Shown here: one piece after another, positions 52,007-54,043 of the stretch
Layout: every line of letters starts with the position of its first letter
Position numbering within the stretch: the stretch's first letter is position 1
NCBI RefSeq assembly: GCF_014252335.1
Contig: NZ_CP059218.1
Location: 174,165-238,164, forward strand
Reading direction: 5' to 3'
Length of the DNA: 64,000 bases
Source of the DNA: Blattabacterium cuenoti
GTDB lineage: Bacteria; Bacteroidota; Bacteroidia; Flavobacteriales; Blattabacteriaceae
The notes under the pieces: generated by a model
Told to the model about the DNA's origin: nothing
What the model saw: only the letters and a program-made list of their open reading frames with translations
The model's database searches: none
Position numbers and translations under genes: made by a program

Positions 52007-52014
52007 TATATTTG
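52007..52014 (+). promoter_or_regulatory. Candidate -7 promoter box for the outer-membrane gene (TATATTTG)
   Basis: TATATTTG is an exact TAnnTTTG match between the smpB stop and the next gene, 22-43 bases before its candidate ATGs. Confidence 0.35.
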
Positions 52015-52050
52015 TTAAATTTTAATTTTTTTATTATGAATCTTTTTTTT

Positions 52051-53148
52051 ATGAAAATGAAAAATATCAAATATCTTTTTATTTTATGGTTATTGTTATC
52101 TTCTTGTTCTGTAGTCCATTCTCAATCACTTTTTAAAAATCCAAGATCTCAAAAAAAATGGGAAATTCAAATTGGAATAGATGATTTAAATTATCCACCA
52201 ATCAATTCTCCATTTAAAAATTTTTTTATAAAAAATAATAATAATATTTTACTACCTTTTTATAATTTAAAATTAGTAAATAAGATTACAAAACAGATAG
52301 ATCTATATTTAGATTCTTCGTTTGGAATAACAGAAAATAATAAGTGGAATACTAACGATGGTCATTATTATAAAATTATTCCTGGAATCAATTATCATAT
52401 ATATAAATATGCACGACTTGATCCCTATTTAAAATTAGGACTAGGATACCATTTTTTTAATTATGATAATCATCAATTAATTATTTCTAAAGAAAAAACA
52501 TTTCTTGAAAATGCAACTCATTTTTTATTGTTAGATGGTGGTATTGGTATGAATTTATGGATATTACCAGATATAGGAATCAATGTTCAAAGTGAATATA
52601 ATCATGTATTTTCACATACTAAACCAGTTCTAAAAGATTATTTAAATTTTTGGAGACATTCTATGGGGATTGTGTATAATTTTAATATAGAATCAAATCA
52701 AGATAAACATAAAAATGATACATGTTTAAAAAACATTTATAATAACATAAATGTAAAAAATGTAGATAAAAAAAATGATACAACAAAAAATGATAAAGAT
52801 AAAAAAGATGATACAACAAAAAATGATAAAGATAAAAAAGACGATACAACAAAAAATATAGATAAAGATAAAAAAGATGATACAACAAAAAATGATAAAG
52901 ATAAAAAAGATAAAAATTTAGACATATCAATTAGTCACAAAAAAACTAATAAGAAAAAAATTACTAACAAAAAATCTACTAACAAAAAATCTACTAACAA
53001 AAAAATTAATAAGAAAAAAACTAATAAGAAAAAAACTAATAAGAAAAAAACTAATAAGAAAAAAACTAATAAGAAAAAAACTAATAAGAAAAAAACTAAT
53101 AAGAAAAAAACTAATAAGAAAAAAATTTACAACAAAAATAAAAAGTAA
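52051..53148 (+). CDS. Outer-membrane beta-barrel-like protein with repetitive Lys-rich tail
   Basis: Predicted exported protein of 365 residues from the ATG at 52051 (other ATGs at 52036 and 52057; the TTG at 52012 is unlikely). A signal peptide ends near LLLSSCSVVHSQS; the LSSC could be a lipobox. Residues about 30-215 look like a small OmpA-type barrel, with alternating aromatic strands such as LDPYLKLGLGYHFF and IGINVQSEYNHVF. No OmpA peptidoglycan-binding domain follows. Instead there are about four 11-residue units (KKDDTTKNDKD) and then TNKKK pentads to the end. I infer an OmpA relative whose C-terminal domain was replaced by expanding repeats. Confidence 0.7.
   Translation: MKMKNIKYLFILWLLLSSCSVVHSQSLFKNPRSQKKWEIQIGIDDLNYPPINSPFKNFFIKNNNNILLPFYNLKLVNKITKQIDLYLDSSFGITENNKWNTNDGHYYKIIPGINYHIYKYARLDPYLKLGLGYHFFNYDNHQLIISKEKTFLENATHFLLLDGGIGMNLWILPDIGINVQSEYNHVFSHTKPVLKDYLNFWRHSMGIVYNFNIESNQDKHKNDTCLKNIYNNINVKNVDKKNDTTKNDKDKKDDTTKNDKDKKDDTTKNIDKDKKDDTTKNDKDKKDKNLDISISHKKTNKKKITNKKSTNKKSTNKKINKKKTNKKKTNKKKTNKKKTNKKKTNKKKTNKKKTNKKKIYNKNKK
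52768..52902 (+). repeat. 33-bp coding tandem repeat (KKDDTTKNDKD), four units
   Basis: Units lie at 52768-52800, 52801-52833, 52834-52869 (with one extra codon) and 52870-52902, all in frame. They differ by a few substitutions, so the array is older than the adjacent 15-bp array. Confidence 0.93.
53011..53115 (+). repeat. 15-bp coding tandem repeat (AAGAAAAAAACTAAT), seven perfect copies
   Basis: Seven identical 15-base copies encode KKKTN pentads. Degenerate copies flank both sides (from about 52940, and 53116 to the stop). Perfect identity suggests recent expansion. Confidence 0.95.
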
Positions 53149-53250: not shown

Positions 53251-54043
53251 TTATGTTTTTGTAGAAAAATATTTAGATATATAAATACTAATTTGATATA
53301 AAATTAGTAATGGAATTAAAACAATTATTGTACTTATCAAATCACCTGGTGTAATAGCAGATGAAAAAATTAAAATAATTAAAAAAGCATGTTTTTTATA
53401 TTTTGTTAAAAAAATATTAGAAAGTAATTTGAATTTCGTTAACAGATATATAAATAATGGAAAAAGAAACGTTATTCCCATAGATAACATTGTATTTATT
53501 ACTAATGATATATAATCTGATAAATCAAATATATTTTTAGGGATAGAACTAATTTGAAAATTAGTTCCAAAAAAAATGATAAAAGGAAATAATATAAAAT
53601 AACCAAAACATATACCACATAAAAATAATAATGATGCAATTATTAAAATATTTTTAGTATATTTTATTTCTTTTTTAGAAAGTGCAGGACATATAAATAT
53701 CCAAAATTCATAAAATATGTAAGGAAATGATAATATAACTCCACCCCATAAACAAGCCCATATATAAATATTAAATTGTCCAAAAATTGATCTGTTTTGT
53801 ATGTCTAAATGTTTATATGAAAATATTGAATAAATTGGAGTATGAAAAAAAAAATGATAATTTATAAATTATTCGATAAGTAAAAAAATTTTTTTTAACA
53901 GGACCAAAAAGTATATAATCAAATATAAATTCTTTATTCTTCATAAGAATAATTGTGGCAATAATAATTGCTATAATACTACGTATAAGATGTTTTCTTA
54001 ATTCTTCAATATGTCTCCACACAGGAAGTATTTTTTCTTTCAT
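53251..54043 (-). pseudogene. tatC: Twin-arginine translocase subunit TatC, one-base frameshift at a T10 run
   Basis: TatC is the multi-spanning receptor of the Tat export system. The first frame (54043 down) gives MKEKILPVWRHIEELRKHL and FIFDYILFGPVKKNFFTYR, the normal TatC N-terminus, then leaves the family after a coding-strand T10 run. The frame one base further on is open from 53868 to the stop at 53251 and gives the rest of TatC: FGQFNIYIWACLWGGVIL, FPYIFYEFWIFICPAL and HAFLIILIFSSAITPGD. The span is 793 bases, one more than a multiple of three, so one T fewer would restore about 263 residues. It is a recent pseudogene, a gene rescued by slippage, or a sequencing error. Confidence 0.9.
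53845..53854 (-). repeat. T10 homopolymer at the tatC frameshift
   Basis: Ten consecutive A on the plus strand (T10 on the coding strand) mark the point where the TatC similarity changes frame. Nine T would make one continuous frame. Confidence 0.92.

Follow-up and report, generated by a model that had tools for sequence, protein, structure and literature searches.

Probable rescue of a frameshifted tatC gene by transcriptional slippage in Blattabacterium cuenoti, and a putative larger case in rnpA

We analyzed a tatC gene of the cockroach symbiont Blattabacterium cuenoti whose two parts lie in different reading frames on either side of a run of ten T. The gene is likely functional, its frame restored by transcriptional slippage at this run, and the break would have been kept since the common ancestor of two species. 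This reading is based on comparison of the gene with its counterparts throughout the genus. The same comparison led to rnpA, which is probably slippage-rescued in most species of the genus and would be a more striking case than tatC itself.

The tatC break and its distribution

The gene is located in the window, i.e., the whole stretch of 64,000 nucleotides that was analyzed, which belongs to a genome (G000) consisting of a single scaffold of 567,897 bp with 23% GC. This genome was compared with 48 relatives of the genus, with sizes of 511-642 kb for the set. The features of the locus are as follows (positions in the window).

53251-54043, minus strand: tatC, the broken gene (sequence and translation)
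53855-54043, minus strand: 5' part of tatC, codons 1-63, comprising the cytoplasmic N-terminal tail with HIEELRKH, TM1, and most of the first periplasmic loop (Pfam TatC)
53845-53854, minus strand: T10 run (A10 on the plus strand), the proposed slippage site (sequence; identical T10 in the related genome G006)
53251-53844, minus strand: 3' part of tatC, read in the shifted frame (197 codons and a TAA stop) and encoding TM2 to TM6 (Pfam TatC)
53813-53815, minus strand: TAA closing the unslipped frame (translation)
53813-54043, minus strand: unslipped open reading frame of 76 amino acids, i.e., the first 66 TatC residues and about ten off-frame residues

Frame 0 is translated as MKEKILPVWRHIEELRKH...FTYRIIYKLSFFF, continues for about ten off-frame residues after T10, and ends at the TAA. 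The 63 residues of the 5' part read MKEKILPVWRHIEELRKHLIRS...RIIYKLS in this frame, while the shifted frame from 53844 (HTPIYSIFSYKHLDIQNRS...KYFSTKT*) contains no internal stop and ends at the natural one, giving an undisrupted 3' part of 197 residues (HTPIYSIFSYKHLDIQNRSIFGQF...KYFSTKT). A sequence-only reading of this DNA had placed the N-terminus in one frame and the remainder in the next, with the switch at a T10 within 53830-53870, and translation into 63 and 197 codons agrees with that description. As it had also stated, one T fewer mends the frame; a run of T12, which it did not mention, would do so as well. The two frames are hence joined by -1 (T9) or by +2 (T12), the latter adding one Phe.

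The Pfam TatC model (PF00902) matched the 5' piece over model positions 2-42 (E 2.7e-7) and the 3' piece over positions 44-208 (E 1.1e-43); matched separately, the two together span the whole domain end to end. The motifs FYEFW, NIFDLSDY, and SSAITPGD are conserved in the product. Apart from the one frameshift, which coincides precisely with an A/T run of at least 9, the gene shows no disruption. From the general topology of TatC, we take the join to lie in the first periplasmic loop, and the loop holding it varies in length among the genomes of the genus.

While tatC is present in 49/49 genomes and intact over the full domain in 47 of them, it is split only in G000 and G006, in both cases at one codon position and by an identical T10. 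The two are sister taxa (SH-aLRT 100%) whose tatC genes diverge by 7.3%, compared to 22% for the next relative. G000 and G006 are distinct species, and the break is conserved between them. We infer a single insertion from T9 to T10 in their common ancestor, retained since. Because the break falls between membrane segments, in a loop where splitting might be tolerated, one could imagine a working pore assembled from two polypeptides, the 5' product and a 3' product with its own start. We consider this exceedingly improbable, as a conserved start is absent: the ATG near the run in G006 is ATA in G000, where the shifted frame offers no ATG, GTG, or TTG until far downstream.

A frameshift census covered the first 238 kb of G000 (42% of the genome, window included), in which approximately 205-209 genes of two reference relatives had matching counterparts. 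Here, tatC was the sole gene to carry a frameshift in G000 as well as in G006. The other A/T runs of at least 9 in G000 genes, of which there are about 110-115 (34 of them of at least 10), were all in frame. These numbers bear on the suggestion that a homopolymer sequencing or assembly error is present in both genomes, which may come from one pipeline. Such an error would require an identical fault in two species, and a random error rate able to strike tatC in both is incompatible with so many runs in frame. Moreover, the tatC loop in question contains runs of T11, T12, or A12 in other genomes, where they are in frame, indicating that long runs are called correctly elsewhere. We therefore assign this explanation a very small probability.

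A recent pseudogene is highly unlikely, too. It would have arisen by a late change from T9 to T10, perhaps separately in both species, with no time for decay, and the fast mutation of homopolymer runs speaks in its favor, given that length is unchanged in G006 for just 5 of the 34 runs of at least 10 in G000 genes. It demands, however, two recent events at the same run leading to the same length, although nothing else in the 238 kb is frameshifted in both genomes and tatC is intact in all 47 others; furthermore, constraint on the gene is as strong as for intact tatC (see below).

Several candidates were rejected. The break in a malate dehydrogenase-like gene, present in G000 only (L151, G000:C1:22788-23697), is a scaffold gap (N), an apparent frameshift in a 425-amino-acid open reading frame is due to a tRNA gene read as protein, and matches with a stop at the alignment end are mere length differences. 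The first 238 kb of G000 contain approximately 1000 N. A gene of 465 amino acids, presumably lnt (apolipoprotein N-acyltransferase), is frameshifted in genome G032 only, near T7A8, and represents a further candidate (L168, G032:C1:8977-10253). Long A/T runs (at least 10) in genes numbered 34-39 in G000 and G006 versus 97 in G024 and 158 in G032, over approximately 240 kb and at similar GC content. A protein of putative outer-membrane type is encoded at 52012-53148 of the window. Its C-terminal region carries long repeats, first of DDTTKNDKDKK and then of TNKKK, and the protein evolves rapidly between G000 and G006 (dN/dS 0.79); in G006, the repeats are different and the sequence includes a stretch of N.

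Selection on the shifted frame and the Tat system

The 3' part of tatC differs between G000 and G006 by 41 substitutions, which are distributed over the codon positions of the shifted frame as 10/2/29. The corresponding rates are dN 0.038 and dS 0.242, compared to dN 0.058 and dS 0.198 for the 5' part. The resulting dN/dS of the 3' part is 0.14-0.16; over a slightly shorter stretch it is 0.139, which is lower than the genus median of 0.171 for other close pairs with intact tatC. Among 56 other genes of the window (median 0.34), only about four to five have a lower dN/dS than the 3' part. When neutral evolution was simulated at substitution rates derived from synonymous third positions, 0 of 20000 runs reached at least 29 third-position changes and 2.5% stayed stop-free.

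Purifying selection past T10, for which the sequence-only reading had proposed a check, is thus present between the two species sharing the break. Assuming that the break predates the split of G000 and G006, this selection has acted on the shifted frame after the break arose, and it follows that tatC has worked throughout. Two recent independent changes from T9 to T10 would give the same selection figures, but they need the identical event twice. Together, the shared break and the dN/dS in the shifted frame make a pseudogene, or an error confined to the G000 assembly, very unlikely. Of the options considered in the sequence-only reading, slippage rescue is consequently the one we retain, as an inferred mechanism, whereas very recent loss and sequencing error are disfavored by the shared break, the dN/dS, and the presence of TatA/B and ActB.

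The partners and a substrate of the Tat pore, which the same reading had suggested searching for, were indeed found. Two TatA/B genes are present in each of the 49 genomes and intact in G000. A weak, sub-threshold match to a Tat-signal profile was obtained at corresponding places in 4/4 genomes tested; in G000 and G006, it begins an open frame of approximately 970 codons containing TSRRDFLKWIGFSTASATLAAC. The G000 product matches subunit B of alternative complex III (6btm_B, E 1e-86; 6f0k_B), and this conserved ActB carries the twin-arginine motif TSRRDFLK. Its gene adjoins a multihaem cytochrome c gene. TIGR04519, the extended Tat domain of ActB, gave no match at all, even in the controls, and is uninformative here. 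In light of known ActB biology, export of ActB is probably the reason why selection keeps tatC; the downstream frame would be held by a continuing need for the Tat pore, probably for the export of ActB of the respiratory chain, and the Tat system would be functional in these species.

Frame variation in rnpA

The census also identified a second broken gene in G000, and a search of the genus revealed that each genome has a single rnpA, whose open frame is short in most cases (L190-L234; 47 genomes classifiable).

G000:C1:120667-120998 (L156): rnpA (RNase P protein), broken at an A9 run

We found rnpA to be disrupted at a poly(A) run in 37/47 genomes; in all of these but one, a change of frame separates the N-terminal half (...NLIGTLVKK) from the C-terminal half (KKNFKKSVHRNRIKRLL...). 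Every genome with a broken rnpA has an uninterrupted run of 9-13 A, while the three genomes in which the run is shorter than 9 or interrupted are all intact (p 0.007). The frame would be repaired by +1 or -2 in 19 genomes and by -1 or +2 in 17, and run length and frame differ even within sister pairs (G015/G016, G019/G046). The remaining one of the 37, G042 (L232), is an exception in that a stop follows the first run; its second A run is one shorter as well, so that slipping once, at the first or at the second run, would not obviously restore the frame. This stop may be an error or a true loss.

Both rnpA halves are equally constrained, with a pN/pS of 0.41 each over ten pairs. That the gene is broken in both wrong frames while both halves are conserved is difficult to account for unless some rescue operates in either frame, and it lends independent support to slippage as the explanation for tatC. 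rnpA is essential in model bacteria. We consider it reasonably probable that the rnpA frame is not fixed in the DNA of these species: the run would drift between 9 and 13, leaving about four fifths of the species out of frame, and slippage of RNA polymerase would supply sufficient in-frame mRNA in each case, with tatC in the clade of G000 and G006 as a second gene under the same tolerance. The series of approximately 47 species, with runs of 6-13, provides a natural experiment on run length, frame, and selection.

Slippage mechanism and known systems

According to the proposed mechanism, RNA polymerase would slip on T10, so that part of the tatC mRNA carries T9 or T12 and is translated into full-length TatC, while the remaining unslipped mRNA would yield the 76-amino-acid stub. 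The RNA polymerase of E. coli slips on at least 7 T and favors poly(T) over poly(A), and its deletion slippage rises with the length of the T run (PMC6260861). In Buchnera transcripts, insertions and deletions both increase exponentially with run length, insertions being more common (PMC5574713). This bias may be held against the deletion needed in tatC, although +2 would also work. In frameshifted genes of Buchnera and Blochmannia, 12-50% of the transcripts were measured to be frame-corrected, as reported in PMC5009743. Judged by these systems, the T10 of tatC lies within the working range of slippage.

Alternatively, the shift might occur on the ribosome, by +1 frameshifting at UUU UUU UUU U-CA, where the P-site tRNA-Phe would move one base to the next UUU and translation would resume at CAU. 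The U run permits re-pairing in the required direction, and ribosomal recoding of frameshift mutations has been documented in chloroplast atpB (PMC8254509). Of the features of a programmed ribosomal frameshift, the slippery run is present, but a stable structure is not: the tatC region folds no better than shuffled sequences (z 0.99), and no internal Shine-Dalgarno sequence was seen in it. In addition, rnpA needs both shift directions, for which a mixed mRNA pool is a simpler explanation than one programmed shift. We thus regard ribosomal frameshifting as unlikely and favor slippage during transcription.

Slippage rescue of genes with conserved breaks at homopolymers is an established phenomenon (PMC3017870, PMC4389277, and works cited therein). 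In the non-subscription literature searched, no report of slippage rescue for Blattabacterium, tatC, or rnpA was found; relative to these papers, the gene, the genus, and the scale appear new. The findings would add Bacteroidota to the gammaproteobacterial symbionts in which slippage rescue occurs. Since slippage-rescued genes are likely annotated as pseudogenes, estimates of gene loss in reduced symbionts, and the metabolism deduced for them, may be incorrect. By pseudogene calling, the Tat system would be scored as deficient in the species represented by G000, and the RNase P protein as missing from most of the genus.

The closest counterparts are the poly(A) frameshifts of Buchnera and Blochmannia rescued by slippage (Tamas et al. 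2008 PNAS; Wernegreen et al. 2010 MBE; both as reported in PMC3017870 and PMC5009743). As summarized there, these genes resemble tatC in that they belong to AT-rich insect symbionts and carry a single frameshift in a homopolymer of at least 9 while being otherwise intact, and also in the conservation of the break between species and the purifying selection downstream. From the cases described in these summaries, tatC differs in its Bacteroidota host, its coding-strand T run, and its membrane translocase product, and it is described here at the DNA level. A transcriptional frameshift also rescues the interrupted tssM of Citrobacter rodentium, which is, unlike tatC, an enterobacterial type VI secretion gene from which two length variants are made (PMC4256274). 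In Blochmannia vafer, homopolymer frameshifts affect dnaX, dnaG, dxs, pth, and ribF, again with one poly(A/T) break and, for the four that were tested, with no acceleration of evolution; the dnaX break is common to two species, as is the break in tatC (PMC3017870). The genes concerned are different ones, however, and the rnpA case extends over the majority of the species of Blattabacterium, sister species differing in run length and frame.
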